From Candidatus Nomurabacteria bacterium (GTDB taxonomy: Bacteria; Patescibacteriota; Minisyncoccia; Phycocordibacterales; CAIJYI01), in assembly GCA_943356445.1 (NCBI GenBank), contig CALREZ010000002.1, positions 1 to 54,462 of the forward strand: a stretch of DNA of 54,462 nt, in the 5' to 3' direction. Position 1 is the stretch's first letter; each line of letters starts with the position of its first letter. Both the position numbers and the translations under genes were made by a program. The notes beneath the pieces were generated by a model. That model was not told the DNA's origin. It ran no database searches and saw nothing but the letters and a program-made list of their open reading frames with translations. Of this stretch, positions 20,413-24,943 are shown piece by piece.

Positions 20413-20439
20413 TTTGGCGTGTCCTTTAAGGAAATTTAG

Positions 20440-20458
20440 TTATCCACAGTTATCCACA
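20440..20458 (+). other. Tandem DnaA boxes
   Basis: Two perfect TTATCCACA boxes in direct repeat, 1 nt apart (20440-20448, 20450-20458), in a gene-free AT-rich stretch. Copies of ATAAAGGAC lie just downstream (about 20460 and 20475), and the same motif follows the DnaA boxes at 24.24 kb. Confidence 0.7.
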
Positions 20459-20467
20459 ATAAAGGAC

Positions 20468-20495
20468 TTGCATATAAAGGACAAGAAAGTATAAT
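20468..20495 (+). promoter_or_regulatory. Promoter-like sequence in the gene-free region
   Basis: TTGCAT (20468-20473), 16-nt spacer, TATAAT (20490-20495). There is no coding sequence downstream before the terminator at 20640. Confidence 0.55.
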
Positions 20496-20501
20496 AATAA
20501 T

Positions 20502-20666
20502 CAGATAGTGATTCAATAAATAGATAACCAAGGGAACATATTTGTTCCATCGCCTCAACAAAGGTAAACATCTATAAAAACATTATCATAGTTAGTCACA
20601 TTTGTTCTTTCCTCGCACAAGAAAAATAGAATATACCCCAAGGGCCGCACATGCGGCCCTTTCTTT
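20502..20666 (+). ncRNA. Candidate small non-coding RNA (~160 nt)
   Basis: The segment is bounded by a promoter-like pair and a strong terminator and has no open frame of useful length. It holds a hairpin GGAACA / TGTTCC (about 20533-20548). It does not resemble tmRNA, 6S or RNase P RNA by eye. Alternatively the whole region is origin DNA and the promoter match is accidental. Confidence 0.35.
20640..20666 (+). terminator. Intrinsic terminator with no gene directly upstream
   Basis: Stem AAGGGCCGC / GCGGCCCTT followed by a T-rich tract. The nearest upstream gene (xth) ends 228 nt earlier. Confidence 0.8.
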
Positions 20667-20682
20667 ATAATGAGTGCTAACA

Positions 20683-20806
20683 GAGCGGTCTTTTCCGCGA
20701 TCTTCGCGTTAAATTTCAGAAAAAATCGTGGAGCAGTACTTTTGTACAGCTTCGCGATTTTTTCTGAAATTTAACGCGAAGGAGGGTCATCGGAAAATCC
20801 TCGCTC
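20683..20806. repeat. 124-bp composite palindrome
   Basis: A perfect 27-bp inverted repeat (20702-20728 with 20755-20781; arm begins CTTCGCGTTAAATTTCAG) encloses a smaller hairpin GTAC-TTTT-GTAC flanked by GGAGC / GCTTC. Outside the perfect arms an imperfect match continues to GAGCG (20683) and CGCTC (20806). No coding sequence or long T tract is associated with it. Confidence 0.8.
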
Positions 20807-20918
20807 TTTATTTTGGTGGTAAATTTAATTCTGAAACACTGTTTTTTGACTTATTGTGTCGCATCAAGTAGTGTTTACTCTGGAAACACTGTTATTTTTA
20901 TTGTCAAAAGGAACTATT

Positions 20919-21212
20919 ATGCAACTTGCTATAGATCTTCTGAAACGAATCAATCTGTTCTATATAAACTTTGGAAGAAGTTCAAACGAAAAAGTGCTTA
21001 TTACCTATTTTAATATGACGCAAGGTGAAAGCGCTGAAAGTGTTCAAAGTTCCCTCTCCCGGTTGTTTCAAAAGAGTCTGATTATGCGAATACCTCAAGA
21101 AGGAAAAGAGGGACCATGTACGGAAATTATTCCCACTGAGTACACGCTTGGGTTGCTGGATAATTATTCTGTTGAAGAAATTTTCTTCAACAGGATGCAA
21201 AAACAAGACTAA
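20919..21212 (+). CDS. Small protein of unknown function, possibly winged-helix (97 aa)
   Basis: ATG 20919 follows AAAGGA at a suitable distance; a longer in-frame start at 20856 has no such site. Residues 20-60 (NEKVLITYFNMTQGESAESVQSSLSRLFQKSL split across helices) are compatible with a winged helix-turn-helix, but this is a weak impression. Two GAAACACTGTT direct repeats (about 20833 and 20872) and a TTGACT precede it and could be an operator and promoter. Ends at the hairpin at 21218. Confidence 0.5.
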   Translation: MQLAIDLLKRINLFYINFGRSSNEKVLITYFNMTQGESAESVQSSLSRLFQKSLIMRIPQEGKEGPCTEIIPTEYTLGLLDNYSVEEIFFNRMQKQD

Positions 21213-21269: not shown

Positions 21270-21533
21270 TTATTGATAGATTTCGTGCGAACCTATTTTT
21301 AATAAAAATACCGTATTTCCTTCCCCGTATTCAAAAATGATTCGGAATTTGTAATTTACGGAAAAACTATAAAAACCGGATAATTGCCCGCTAAGTTTAT
21401 GAACTTTTAACAGTTTATGATTTTCTTGGTTCTTAAAAAGTTCAATTTTTTCAATAGTCTCATCTTGAAGCGGTGTCGGAAGCGATTTCCACTGACGGAT
21501 GAATATGGGGGCATAAGCAATATCTAATTCCAT
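21270..21533 (-). CDS. RelE/ParE-superfamily toxin
   Basis: An 87-aa protein with the fold-defining pattern of RelE/ParE toxins: YAPIFIRQWKSLPTPLQ, then the conserved KLLKVHKLSGQLSGFYSFSV (the L-x-G-x-x-G-x-Y/W-x-x-R-like core) and YKFRIIFEYGEGNTVFLLKIG. It could cut mRNA or poison gyrase; the sequence does not decide. It follows the antitoxin by 13 nt and is last in its operon. Confidence 0.85.
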   Translation of the reverse strand: MELDIAYAPIFIRQWKSLPTPLQDETIEKIELFKNQENHKLLKVHKLSGQLSGFYSFSVNYKFRIIFEYGEGNTVFLLKIGSHEIYQ

Positions 21534-21546
21534 AGAAAAAAGAGGG

Positions 21547-21768
21547 TTATCCTAATTGCCGAGCAATATCTCTTATATCTCCGCGTATTGCCTTCCCTGC
21601 GCGAATTTCTTGTTGCGCTTTAAGGATGTCGCCAATAGCTTCATCTTCTGCAAGAAGGTGAAGCGCCTGCCTCACCACTTCGGCTTTATTTGAAGCCTTC
21701 CCTCTTTTTATAAAGGAATCAATAAACTCTTCAAGTGTTTGGTTTAATGGAACAGAAAGTGTACTCAT
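21547..21768 (-). CDS. ParD/CopG-type ribbon-helix-helix antitoxin
   Basis: A 73-aa protein starting with the RHH strand STLSVPLNQTLEEFIDSFI, followed by KASNKAEVVRQALHLL, the classic ParD dimer helix; the C-terminal part (IRAGKAIRGDIRDIARQL) would wrap the toxin. RHH antitoxins repress their own operon, and a perfect operator-like palindrome overlaps the promoter region at 21777-21802. Confidence 0.85.
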   Translation of the reverse strand: MSTLSVPLNQTLEEFIDSFIKRGKASNKAEVVRQALHLLAEDEAIGDILKAQQEIRAGKAIRGDIRDIARQLG

Positions 21769-21839: not shown

Positions 21840-23492
21840 TTATTTTACCCCGTGTTTCTTGCGTATTTCGGTAAGTTCTTGTTGTTCGGCTTCTGCTTTG
21901 GCTTCTTTTCCCTCTTCACCAAGCTTTTTGAGCTCTGATTCCGGGAGTTTTATAAGTTCTAATGTGCGTTTCTCAAGATATTCCGCGGTATTGAGATTTG
22001 GATCTTCCAAAACTTCTTCCAAAAGCGCGTGCAGGATAAGTCCAAGTTTTGGTCCCGGTGTTTCATGTGTAACCTCCATAATCCTCGTTCCGTCTATTTT
22101 GAGCATCCCAACAGATACCGGGGCCCTCATAGCCTCGTCTATCATTGCCTCGTATTTTCGCAAGCGATAAGGCTTTTCAACCGGTCTTCCCATCCCGATA
22201 CGGTCACAGGCCCTTATTTTCATAAGATCCCAGACGTTTTCCGCTCCGACATTCGCTACAATCCTTCTTACGGCAGAAAGCGTTATTTTTTCCACATCCG
22301 AGAAGAAAAGATGGTACCTTACCAGTGATGAAACACTATCCGTAAGTTTCACGGGAAACCTGAGACGTTCCATTACCTTCTTGGAAACCCTTCCTCCGAC
22401 AACGTCATGGCCGTAAAACGTCCAATTATCCTTCTCTTTTGACCATCTGCGGGTATCCGGTTTGGCAATATCATGGAAAAGGGCCCCTAAACGAATGTGG
22501 AGAGGCCAGTGGTTTCTAGCAGAATGATCAAGCGCTCGGATATTATGCTCCCAGACGGTATAGATATGACTGCCATTTTGTTCCACCCCGATACCATTTT
22601 CCAATTCCGGAGCTATAAAACGAAGCAAGTTGAGTTGATGGGTCAGGATAATACCCTCCATGGCATTATCCGACATAATCATTTTTGTGAATTCGTCACG
22701 TATTCTTTCGTATGAAACATGTTTTAGGTTATCGGAAAGCCTTTTTATGGCATCTTCCGTCTCTTTTTCTATGGTAAAACCCAATTCCGTAGCAAAACGA
22801 GCGGCACGAAGCAGACGGAGCGCGTCTTCATTGAAACGGTCTTCAGGATTCCCTATGGCTCTGACTATTTTGTCCTTTATATCCTCTTGTCCTTTATAAA
22901 GATCAATAATAACCCTCTCTTTTGGGTTGTATGCCAGCGCATTTATCGTAAAATCACGGCGTTTGAGGTCATCTTCCAGTTTTTTACTGAAAGTTACCTC
23001 ATTTGGATGCCGTTTATCGCTATATTCGGACTCCATACGGTAAGGGGTAACTTCTATGATGACTGTTTCATGTGTAACTATCTGATTGATCGCTCCCGCG
23101 GGTCGCTGGGGTGTAGGGGCCTGTCCAGTGACAGGCGGATGAAAACCAATGGTTTTCATACTTTCCTTTGTTTCACATGTAACATTTTCGTCACCATCAT
23201 CTGATGTTTCATGTGCAACACTCTGCCGGATGGGGTTTGTAACCCCATCCGGAACGTTTGTGTCCACCACTACCCCCACCGTTCCAAACGTATTCTCGTA
23301 GAAGGTTTTTTCAAAAAGGCCGATTATTTCTTCCGGAACGGCATTTGTGGTAACATCCCAGTCTTTCGGTTCTCTCCCTAAGATAAGGTCTCTTACGCAG
23401 CCGCCGACCAAATAAGCTTCAAAACCGGCGTCTTGAAGAGTTTCTGTTACACGTGTAACATATGATGGAATATGGCTTTGCAAGTCTTTCAT
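21840..23492 (-). CDS. cca: CCA-adding tRNA nucleotidyltransferase with a 65-aa extra segment
   Basis: Adds or repairs the 3' CCA of tRNAs; needed here because several tRNA genes in the window (Arg, both Gly, Pro-TGG) do not encode CCA. Residues 26-50 hold the class II nucleotidyltransferase motif LVGGCVRDL and the DWDVTT metal Asp pair; RRDFTINALAYN, the RRLLRAARF-type segment ALRLLRAARFATEL, and an HD domain (LFHDIAKPDTR) follow. At 550 aa it is long. Residues about 77-142, between FGTVGVV and IIEVTPYR, are an extra segment not expected in the palm domain; it is encoded by parS-like sites and hairpins. TACAAT ends 7 nt before ATG, predicting a leaderless message. Confidence 0.93.
   Translation of the reverse strand: MKDLQSHIPSYVTRVTETLQDAGFEAYLVGGCVRDLILGREPKDWDVTTNAVPEEIIGLFEKTFYENTFGTVGVVVDTNVPDGVTNPIRQSVAHETSDDGDENVTCETKESMKTIGFHPPVTGQAPTPQRPAGAINQIVTHETVIIEVTPYRMESEYSDKRHPNEVTFSKKLEDDLKRRDFTINALAYNPKERVIIDLYKGQEDIKDKIVRAIGNPEDRFNEDALRLLRAARFATELGFTIEKETEDAIKRLSDNLKHVSYERIRDEFTKMIMSDNAMEGIILTHQLNLLRFIAPELENGIGVEQNGSHIYTVWEHNIRALDHSARNHWPLHIRLGALFHDIAKPDTRRWSKEKDNWTFYGHDVVGGRVSKKVMERLRFPVKLTDSVSSLVRYHLFFSDVEKITLSAVRRIVANVGAENVWDLMKIRACDRIGMGRPVEKPYRLRKYEAMIDEAMRAPVSVGMLKIDGTRIMEVTHETPGPKLGLILHALLEEVLEDPNLNTAEYLEKRTLELIKLPESELKKLGEEGKEAKAEAEQQELTEIRKKHGVK
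22059..22074. promoter_or_regulatory. parS-like site 1 (inside cca)
   Basis: TGTTTCATGTGTAACC matches the bacterial parS consensus TGTTTCACGTGAAACA at 13 of 16 positions. Read on the cca strand it encodes V-T-H-E-T. Confidence 0.5.
23064..23079. promoter_or_regulatory. parS-like site 2 (inside cca extra segment)
   Basis: TGTTTCATGTGTAACT, 13 of 16 matches to parS; encodes V-T-H-E-T (residues 139-143). Confidence 0.5.
23169..23184. promoter_or_regulatory. parS-like site 3 (inside cca extra segment)
   Basis: TGTTTCACATGTAACA, 14 of 16 matches to parS; encodes V-T-C-E-T. Confidence 0.55.
23205..23220. promoter_or_regulatory. parS-like site 4 (inside cca extra segment)
   Basis: TGTTTCATGTGCAACA, 14 of 16 matches to parS; encodes V-A-H-E-T. 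Confidence 0.55.
23445..23460. promoter_or_regulatory. parS-like site 5, perfect palindrome (5' end of cca)
   Basis: TGTTACACGTGTAACA is a perfect 16-bp palindrome with the CACGTG core; 14 of 16 matches to parS, the two differences being the symmetric positions 5 and 12. Encodes residues 12-16 of the CCA enzyme. Confidence 0.65.
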
Positions 23493-23513
23493 AAACGTAA
23501 TTGTAACAAATTT

Positions 23514-23542
23514 TTGATATTTTGCGAATTTTAGTGTAGTAT
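23514..23542 (+). promoter_or_regulatory. Promoter of tRNA-Arg
   Basis: TTGATA (23514-23519), 17-nt spacer, TAGTAT (23537-23542), ending 10 nt before the tRNA. Confidence 0.55.
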
Positions 23543-23552
23543 ACGGTTATAA

Positions 23553-23624
23553 GCGCCCGTAGTGAAACGGATATCACTTCAGTCTTCGAAACTGACAGTC
23601 CAGGTTCGAGTCCTGGCGGGCGCA
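23553..23624 (+). tRNA. tRNA-Arg (anticodon TCG)
   Basis: Acceptor GCGCCCG / CGGGCGC, anticodon loop CTTCGAA in stem TCAGT / ACTGA, T-arm CCAGG-TTCGAGT-CCTGG. CCA is not encoded. Confidence 0.95.
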
Positions 23625-23650
23625 CAGGAGATATATAGATATTTTTTCTA

Positions 23651-23678
23651 TTGAAAAAACTTTTATTTTTCGTATAAT
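23651..23678 (+). promoter_or_regulatory. Promoter of tRNA-Gly(GCC)
   Basis: TTGAAA (23651-23656), 16-nt spacer, TATAAT (23673-23678). Confidence 0.7.
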
Positions 23679-23687
23679 GGCTACATC

Positions 23688-23758
23688 GCGGGTATAGTTT
23701 AGTGGTAGAATATGACATTGCCAATGTTAAGGCGAGAGTTCGATTCTCTCTACCCGCA
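23688..23758 (+). tRNA. tRNA-Gly (anticodon GCC)
   Basis: Acceptor GCGGGTA / TACCCGC, anticodon loop TTGCCAA, T-arm GAGAG-TTCGATT-CTCTC. CCA is not encoded. Confidence 0.95.
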
Positions 23759-23765
23759 CAAGGAG

Positions 23766-23793
23766 AAAATACCGCCTAAAATGGCGGTATTTT
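23766..23793 (+). terminator. Intrinsic terminator after the tRNA pair
   Basis: Stem AAAATACCGCC / GGCGGTATTTT with a 6-nt loop, 7 nt after tRNA-Gly. Confidence 0.8.
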
Positions 23794-23843
23794 CTTTGCA
23801 TTCTTGCTTTGTTTTTGCAAACTTTTTTGTGTATACTATGAAT

Positions 23844-24152
23844 ATGGAAATTAAAACCGAGTTTGAATCCGCTCTTATTTTGCACAATATGCGCGAGTTT
23901 GTGATGGATAAACGAAAGTTTGACGAATGTATCCCGGAAAACATGAAAGAAGATCGAGAATATGGGTTTCTTGTGTCAGGACAACGCAATTATTGGCTTT
24001 TGGGAAAGTTTCCATTGCACGAAAAACGAGAAGATGGAGTGGTTTCGGAAGACCCTCGCGCTATTATCAATATCTTTGAAGTAACGCATTTCATTGATAA
24101 TGGGCAAATTTGCACGCGCGGAAAATACAAAATACTTCAGATCGTCGGATAA
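23844..24152 (+). CDS. Small protein of unknown function (102 aa)
   Basis: A soluble protein with no signal or membrane segment, rich in charged residues (REFVMDKRKFDECIPENMKE) and with an aromatic strand YWLLGKFPL. No family recognised. ATG 23844 is chosen because TATACT (23832-23837) ends 6 nt before it; the ATG at 23838 touches the -10, and the longer frame would overlap tRNA-Gly. Predicted leaderless. Confidence 0.55.
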   Translation: MEIKTEFESALILHNMREFVMDKRKFDECIPENMKEDREYGFLVSGQRNYWLLGKFPLHEKREDGVVSEDPRAIINIFEVTHFIDNGQICTRGKYKILQIVG

Positions 24153-24176
24153 ATACTCATTCATTATGACTTTTAC

Positions 24177-24199
24177 ATGCCTCTTATGAGGCATTTTTT
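24177..24199 (+). terminator. Intrinsic terminator
   Basis: Stem ATGCCTC / GAGGCAT, loop TTAT, T6. Confidence 0.85.
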
Positions 24200-24220
24200 A
24201 TTCCCATAAATATGTAAAAC

Positions 24221-24249
24221 TGTGGATAACTCTGTGTACATGTGTATAA
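24221..24249 (-). other. Pair of DnaA boxes
   Basis: TGTGGATAA (24221-24229) and TGTGTATAA (24241-24249) are the complements of TTATCCACA and TTATACACA. They lie in a 280-bp AT-rich gene-free spacer, followed by an AAAGGAC motif as at 20.46 kb. Confidence 0.6.
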
Positions 24250-24368
24250 AGGACACCTTTTTTAATCATCAGCAAGCATTCTTTTTTTGACCTTTTGTCA
24301 ATAAATGTGGCTTAAAATAACGTTATTTGTTTAGGTCGTCAAGGAAAAAATAAGAAAATATAAAGGAA

Positions 24369-24402
24369 ACAAAACAACGTTTCACATGAAACGTTGTTTT
24401 GT
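24369..24402. promoter_or_regulatory. parS-like site 6 within a 34-bp palindrome
   Basis: The core CGTTTCACATGAAACG (24378-24393) matches parS at 13 of 16 positions and is embedded in a palindrome with 16-bp arms (ACAAAACAACGTTTCA / TGAAACGTTGTTTTGT) and a 2-nt centre, just upstream of yraN. Confidence 0.6.
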
Positions 24403-24433
24403 GGATTTCCTTTAAAAGGGGTATTATCTTTTT

Positions 24434-24943
24434 ATGCCAAAGACAGAAAAACAAGAAACCGGGGATATTGGAGAGAAAATTGCGGGACTTTTCTTGAAAT
24501 CTAGAGGATTTGAAATTGCGGGGACGAACTACCGAAAACCCTGGGGAGAAATTGATATTATTGTTCGCAAAAAAGGGAAGATTCATTTTATAGAAGTAAA
24601 GACGGTAAAATTACGAGAAAAAACATCGTCTGTTTCTTGTGAAACAAACATCGGCTTTTTTAGAAAGAGCGGGGAAGTTATTTTAGAAAAGTTTTCACCT
24701 CCGGAAAAGTCTTATGCTATCAAAGAAATTTTAAACGGAGATGAAACCAGTGGCAATGGGTATCGCCCAGAGGATAATTTGCACCCATGGAAACTGAAAC
24801 GATTAAAAAAGGCTATCTTGTCGTATCTGGAAGAAAAACGCATGACAGAAGAAGACGACTGGCAATTTGACGCCGTTACGGTTCGTCTTGATGAAAAAGG
24901 GAAGATTGCTATGGTTGAATACCTTGAGGATATAATACTCTAA
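24434..24943 (+). CDS. yraN: YraN/UPF0102-family nuclease-like protein
   Basis: Members share a restriction-endonuclease-like fold. Visible: GDIGEKIAGLFLKSRGFEI, NYRKPWGEIDIIV and HFIEVKTV, i.e. the E-x-D-x(n)-E-x-K catalytic pattern, then RPEDNLHPWKLKRLKKAI and WQFDAVTV. At 169 aa it is longer than the usual ~120: residues about 57-105 form an extra segment which contains V-S-C-E-T, the translation of parS-like site 7. TATTAT ends 6 nt before ATG, so it should be leaderless. Confidence 0.85.
   Translation: MPKTEKQETGDIGEKIAGLFLKSRGFEIAGTNYRKPWGEIDIIVRKKGKIHFIEVKTVKLREKTSSVSCETNIGFFRKSGEVILEKFSPPEKSYAIKEILNGDETSGNGYRPEDNLHPWKLKRLKKAILSYLEEKRMTEEDDWQFDAVTVRLDEKGKIAMVEYLEDIIL
24631..24646. promoter_or_regulatory. 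parS-like site 7 (inside yraN)
   Basis: TGTTTCTTGTGAAACA, 14 of 16 matches to parS; read on the yraN strand it encodes V-S-C-E-T. Confidence 0.55.

Follow-up and report, generated by a model that had tools for sequence, protein, structure and literature searches.

The element at positions 20683-20806 of the window, by which we mean the whole stretch of 54,462 nucleotides of Candidatus Nomurabacteria DNA analysed here, belongs to a family of hairpins that is dispersed through genomes of its order. Its members have a fixed architecture in which pairing is maintained, a preference for the site directly behind a stop codon, a pattern of presence and absence among related genomes and a bias in the strand that folds. 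On balance, we consider the element to be a dispersed palindromic repeat that is similar in kind to the REP and ERIC repeats. A limited literature search found no account of it, and the family is absent from Rfam as searched here.

Anatomy and fold of the window element

The copy in the window is a two-part hairpin of 124 nt composed of an outer stem, an internal loop, an inner stem and a tip. Its ends were read from the sequence, from 20683 (GAGCG) to 20806 (CGCTC), and its coordinates are exact. The plus strand is defined by the other copies, most of which, read in this direction, come after a co-oriented gene. The features are as follows:

20683..20806, plus strand: whole element, 124 nt; the family model R2 matches 20683-20805
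20683..20697, plus strand: outer stem, 5′ arm, GAGCGGTCTTTTCCG; the inner part TTTTCCG is paired, with a TC/TC mismatch inside
20698..20701, plus strand: lower internal loop, 5′ side, CGAT; the family motif is CGAWCT
20702..20734, plus strand: inner stem, 5′ arm, from the DNA fold and the inverted-repeat arms
20735..20748, plus strand: tip A-GTAC-TTTT-GTAC-A with an A.A mismatch, common to the genus-level copies
20749..20781, plus strand: inner stem, 3′ arm, with two plus-strand G.U pairs near the tip, unlike most copies
20782..20790, plus strand: lower internal loop, 3′ side, GAGGGTCAT; TCTCAT in other copies, altered here
20791..20806, plus strand: outer stem, 3′ arm, CGGAAAATCCTCGCTC

The inner arms, 20702-20739 and 20744-20781, are 38 nt each and 92% complementary around a 4-nt loop, and their 27 outermost bases (20702-20728 with 20755-20781) pair perfectly. 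A preliminary description of this DNA had reported a 124-bp composite palindrome with a 27-bp perfect arm, and the claim is confirmed and was, if anything, understated. As DNA, the segment 20660-20830 folds at -47.7 kcal/mol compared with a shuffle mean of -16.9 (z -11.3), and none of 200 shuffles equalled it. As RNA, the 124-mer folds with a z of -12.9, and the two strands give -12.9 and -11.5. The nested GTAC-TTTT-GTAC hairpin lies within the perfect arms, as had been described.

The absence of a T tract, which had also been remarked upon, agrees with the terminator scan, which scored no terminator where the window copy ends and found no T tract after it. The terminator-like calls in the window lie upstream of the element (20640-20661), inside its 5′ arm (20696-20708, 5 bp) and elsewhere on the minus strand. 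Membership in a known RNA family was rejected because no Rfam model scored at the gathering cut-off; the scan of the window at these cut-offs returned six tRNAs only and nothing on the element. At a relaxed threshold, the matches to the element among nine loci were microRNA and other models, far below the cut-offs. A likeness of the tip to domain V of group II introns was dropped because no Rfam match supported it.

Copies in the genome and in relatives

The genome of the window (G000; 1.05 Mb in 34 contigs) carries five copies in total. A DNA search, patterns and covariance models place the other four on contigs C1, C3 (two copies) and C12, and the C1 copy is 92% identical to the window copy in the DNA search. 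The same search of 60 relatives matched three genomes, namely G000 itself and two of the same genus. The preliminary description had named the lack of conservation in close relatives and of a second copy as grounds for refutation; conservation and a second copy both exist.

A covariance model built from seven copies (R1) matches 15 of 247 genomes of the same order. A second model built from nine more distant copies (R2) finds the element in 117 of 397 genomes of the order, spread over 55 of 179 genera, and in a phylum-wide draw it matches 14 of 379 genomes, five of which lie outside the class; the ranks of order, genus and class are those assigned by the genome collection. Fuller scoring of five genomes with R2 gave 8, 15, 22, 24 and 18 rows, some of which are one palindrome read on both strands: the 8 rows of G000 are its 5 copies, and the 15 rows of the single-contig genome G108 are 15 separate places. 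The copy number per genome is several to about 20, and the length is 116-125 nt in 98 of 101 copies. A pattern scan of the genome collection gave at least 119 loci, mostly by chance. R2 was applied to 80 of them together with 20 loci from a viral scan and found five matches in four loci, none of them viral; the remaining 39 were screened by a script in place of R2.

Conservation of the structure

Two-sided changes occur at 29 of the 49 predicted pairs among the seven genus-level copies, and the covariation that the preliminary description had proposed to look for in relatives is present. Among 13 distant copies, two-sided changes occur at 46 of the 49 pairs, a count from an alignment that was fitted to the model and is thus biased towards it. 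In these 13 copies, 85% of the cells are paired; the figure falls to 57% in shuffles and does not exceed 52% when the partner is shifted. The sequence alignments A3 and A5 have their inner stems out of register.

The shared architecture is an outer stem, an internal loop and an inner stem of approximately 30 bp, followed by a small upper loop or mismatch and then the tip, in approximately 120 nt. Three parts stay constant: the lower loop (CGAWCT facing TYTCAT), the upper loop, which is TCA facing CTC outside the genus and an A.A mismatch within it, and the GTAC-type pairs of the tip. The outer arms vary between genomes, and their ends are not conserved there. A natural short variant of 76 nt in G108 consists of the outer stem and the lower loop only.

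Template switching in replication might keep the arms of a palindrome complementary with no selection on the fold. Such neutral homogenisation would suit the xth locus, where the inner hairpin has changed faster than the flank between G000 and the congener G001 (77.5% vs. 92.7% identity) and yet has kept its pairing. However, the conserved loops and tip across families, the fixed length, the position at stop codons and the strand bias would all be left unexplained, and loop motifs that stay conserved between genomes lacking a recently shared copy, which also speak against homogenisation, are largely seen already. We regard this explanation as very improbable.

Several copies have irregular neighbours. 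In G108, extra element halves stand beside complete copies (C1, 353050-353250 and 690890-691054; L118 and L135), as if one spot had been hit repeatedly. A scan of G108 for unpaired halves, as a trace of an autonomous partner, found tandem or partial neighbours and further candidates and no transposon-like arrangement. In G001, a second repeat, CCCTGCCGTAGCTTTAGCGAAGGAGGG, lies inside the 3′ arm of two copies (L006 on C4 and L009/L315 on C6), and the window copy retains a remnant of it, GAAGGAGGGTCATC.

Position at stop codons and host genes

In the first batch, 62 of 78 distinct copies start within -16 to +11 nt of the end of a co-oriented stop codon, and 13 of the 23 copies in the second batch lie within 10 nt of one. 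Counted by row, the first batch gives 63 of 80; its 78 distinct copies are what is left of 81 rows once two duplicates (L088, identical with G108:690936, and L082, identical with G301:C4:36417) and one empty row (L096) are set aside. Because R2 contains no stop-codon information, this position also validates the hits. In G108, whose genes are simple longest-ORF calls, 12 of the 15 copies sit between -5 and +7 nt from a stop codon, and every one of the 15 is co-oriented with its 5′ neighbour. Random intergenic insertion would place 5.2% of copies that close, and 2.6% when the orientation is included; even when the count is set low on purpose, at 10 of 15, P is 3e-13 under this assumption.

The host genes of 63 rows fall into clusters of rpsG (nine rows), pilus-ATPase-like genes (four), lepA/fusA (three), mreB-like genes (three), gyrB-like genes (three rows, two copies), pilin-like genes (two), nusG-like genes (two) and tuf (two), and the rest are single. 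The identities of lepA, fusA, the response regulator and the T4SS coupling protein are backed by Pfam, and the other host names were read from the sequences. rpsG and similar orthologous sites are occupied repeatedly across families, a recurrence that fits long retention as well as insertion. The stop codons in these 63 rows are TAA in 44, TAG in 17 and TGA in 2; a preference for a particular triplet was rejected because the G108 ORFs of at least 150 aa have a similar usage (TAA 348, TAG 79, TGA 34). The outer arm often extends to the stop codon, and in one case (G138:C11) it pairs with the last codons.

An element that stands at gene ends could be a transcription terminator of unusual size. 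However, rpsG in G001 and G002 and lepA in G000 each have a separate terminator behind the element, a copy in G108 is embedded in a ribosomal protein operon with the next gene 29 nt downstream, and the window copy has no T tract. We find such a role scarcely credible.

Presence and absence among congeners

The same sites are occupied in some congeners and free in others. The element is present at the rpsG stop codon in G001 and G002 and absent in G000; it follows one of the two fusA genes of G002 and is absent at fusA in G000 and G001; and it is present at lepA in G000 and G002 and absent in G001. At the response regulator gene, G000 carries the element, G001 a broken remnant and G002 none. 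Comparison of the occupied and free rpsG sites reveals a clean insertion just behind the TAA with no clear duplication, and a target duplication could not be established for this bacterial group. In addition, G000 carries near-identical copies on C1 and in the window within unrelated flanks. Between G001 and G002 at rpsG, the element is 91% identical, compared with 82.5% for the coding end and 59% for the 3′ flank, and this better conservation of the element than of its surroundings hints at a function.

The strand that folds

The mismatches that are C.A and U.C on the gene strand become U.G and tandem G.A on the opposite strand, and the lower-loop pair on the minus strand is U.G in 17 of 18 cases and U-A in one. 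Isolated stem mismatches on the plus strand comprise 44 A.C and 9 G.T in 79 sequences, and 29 and 10, respectively, when counted by distinct context in a larger set; the copies are related rather than independent, kinship inflates these numbers, and a C-rich top strand would by composition alone slightly favour A.C. Furthermore, folding as RNA favours the strand opposite the gene in 99 of 101 copies, with a mean gain of 10.9 kcal/mol, and folding as DNA favours it in 98 of 101 (the folding counts, like the tag and box counts given below, are from 102 rows representing 101 elements, with one row empty). The window copy is a clear exception, as its plus strand is more stable by virtue of its own G.U pairs and altered 3′ loop.

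These data bear on two roles that the preliminary description had suggested. A recombination site with a folded single strand gains from the stem mismatches and energies, which favour one strand, antisense to the adjacent gene, and from the presence and absence at one site among congeners, which fits mobility; on the other side, the analysis identified no recombinase, and the element lacks attC boxes. A structured RNA may gain from the abundant two-sided changes, but the strand that would be transcribed together with the upstream gene forms the less stable fold.

The structured RNA could take two forms. The first is a cis-acting 3′-UTR RNA, in which a top-strand hairpin at the stop codon would control ribosome release, translation or 3′-5′ decay of well-expressed mRNAs and would be kept by vertical descent. 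The strict position and orientation at stop codons, the recurrence of housekeeping hosts across families, with rpsG in nine rows, and the better conservation of the element than of its surroundings at rpsG all agree with this proposal, and the terminator behind the element at rpsG in G001 and G002 would place the element inside the transcript. However, the top strand has the weaker fold in 99 of 101 copies, its stem mismatches avoid G.U, and essential genes carry the element in one congener and lack it in another. We judge the 3′-UTR RNA to be rather unlikely. The second form, which we think quite improbable, is an antisense structured RNA that is read from the bottom strand and terminates where the upstream gene has its stop codon. 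The better fold of the bottom strand and its tolerance of G.U would be expected of such an RNA, but a promoter scan at the window copy found a chance-level number of promoter-like sites (5 vs. 2.6 expected), and most neighbours on both sides run the opposite way.

Surroundings of the window copy

The preliminary description had placed the element between DnaA boxes and a parS-like cluster, and this location is correct. Two perfect DnaA-box 9-mers lie at 20440-20458. Nine near-matches to the parS 16-mer (consensus sequence, at most three mismatches) occur in the window compared with 0.42 expected, and eight of them, with two to three mismatches, form the cluster at 22059-24646. The cumulative GC skew has its minimum in windows around 22-24 kb. 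Judged by these motifs, 22059-24646 is likely an origin-proximal ParB region, though the dnaA gene of this genome is on another contig, C4.

A cruciform extruded at an origin, which had been proposed from this location, would draw on the DnaA-box pair, the parS-like cluster and the skew minimum. However, the element also occurs elsewhere in the same genome, as the copies on C1, C3 and C12 demonstrate, and in relatives it recurs as many as about 20 times, with at least 15 copies spread across the genome, mostly behind housekeeping genes. Moreover, dnaA is on a different contig, and the fold is strand-asymmetric, unlike a cruciform. As a general role, the origin cruciform is largely refuted by the dispersed copies, and we consider it extremely improbable at the window locus; the skew dip and the parS-like cluster bear on the address of the window copy only.

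The window copy follows no stop codon closely. It stands 270 nt behind xth (Exo_endo_phos) and 21 nt behind the terminator-like hairpin at 20640-20661. The spacer between xth and the element (20413-20669) shows 92.7% identity in a comparison of G000 with G001 and contains no notable ORF, and for this reason our guess is that the immediate neighbour of the window copy is a small transcript or an unlisted small RNA gene; a relaxed Rfam search of the spacer gave weak, chance-level matches only. Downstream, 20824-20897 holds two 24-nt direct repeats with GAAACACTGT, ahead of a small ORF (20919-21209) without a Pfam match. These repeats look like an operator pair, and a similar word precedes a relative of the small ORF in G001. 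On the minus strand, 21270-21768 contains two small ORFs that by Pfam resemble a toxin-antitoxin pair: one is similar to a ParD-type antitoxin, and the other, which scores just below its cut-off, to a HigB/ParE-like partner.

Spread and possible mechanism

We propose that the dispersed repeat may have spread as a non-autonomous element, either through transposition or because it is copied from site to site. The form that is recognised would be the hairpin of the bottom strand, where the conserved mismatches would become tandem G.A and G.U pairs. The spot behind the stop codon would be either targeted or the place where insertions survive selection. The transcribed strand would add a strong hairpin to the 3′ UTR and may affect termination or mRNA decay, as has been reported for REPs near stop codons. 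No mobilising enzyme was found, and Y1 transposases are weakly associated with the element in a comparison of 117 genomes that carry it with 280 others.

Similar hairpins occur outside the order. An Omnitrophota MAG has three copies with shared ends and the same loops and tip; two of these are at a gene end, where the first base of the element appears to complete a TAG stop codon, and one of the two is in the opposite orientation. The Desulfobacterales MAG Bpl_7 harbours a MITE whose core is similar and whose many copies are near-identical (L174, L175, L207, L211, L231, L252, L264), with clear GGGAATCTCTAATAA-type ends and 4-bp target duplications. The core with the same lower-loop words, the long hairpin and the dispersed copies are shared with our element, whereas the terminal repeats and 4-bp duplications are not seen in this group. 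The kinship is uncertain because the search pattern itself contained the motif. A bolder proposal, which we put forward tentatively and hold to be rather unlikely, is a mobile hairpin of several bacterial phyla whose folded bottom strand is recognised, which enters exactly behind stop codons, whose outer arm pairs with the host stop codon and whose mobiliser lies outside the known partners of REPs and integrons.

If the dispersed-repeat reading is true, the repeat marks the 3′ ends of many of the most-used genes, including those of S7, EF-G, EF-Tu, LepA and GyrB- and MreB-like proteins, in a large, poorly cultivable and genome-reduced group. It would then offer a handle on how transcripts are ended or protected, or on a mobile element with stop codons as its targets. 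Because the position is so strict, the function can be tested directly.

Comparison with known systems

In integron attC sites, a hairpin lies directly behind a stop codon and the bottom strand is the folded form. Our element likewise places a hairpin behind the stop codon and folds better on the bottom strand; it differs in having no R″/R′ boxes and in standing outside cassette arrays. The boxes R″ (RYYYAAC) and R′ (GTTRRRY) occur together in 0 of 102 rows, compared with 0.085 expected from shuffles, and an identity with attC was therefore rejected.

According to excerpts of PMC3733652, REPs are intergenic dispersed palindromes that typically lie less than 20 bp from the 3′ end of the upstream ORF, and the CGTC families have no dedicated transposase. 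Excerpts of PMC12306157, which cites Liang et al. (2015), report that REPs within 15 nt of a stop codon stall ribosomes. REPs measure 20-40 bp and bear a GTAG or CGTC tag, whereas our element is about 120 nt, two-storeyed and without GTAG at its base: GTAG occurs near the 5′ base in 3 of 102 rows and GTAG/CTAC near the 3′ base in 5 of 102, one row being empty. With so rare a tag and a length of 116-125 nt in 98 of 101 copies, we do not assign the element to the GTAG-tagged REPs. Mobilisation by a RAYT (Y1 transposase) was also rejected, as the association is weak and does not explain the distribution; Y1_Tnp is found in 86 of 117 genomes with the element and 163 of 280 without it (odds ratio 2.0), and 5 of 24 genomes with at least eight listed copies lack it.

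ERIC and MITE-like repeats are, like our element, imperfect palindromes of approximately 120-130 bp that are intergenic and present in few to many copies, according to excerpts of PMC10969869 and PMC2759123. In the former, some ERIC copies at the 3′ ends of genes are described as altering mRNA decay. Their sequence is unrelated as far as seen, the ends of our element vary between genomes, and the excerpts of these sources contain no description of a bottom-strand bias or of abutment on stop codons. As multiple dispersed intergenic palindromes near the 3′ ends of ORFs, the copies described here have the features of the broad REP/ERIC-like kind.
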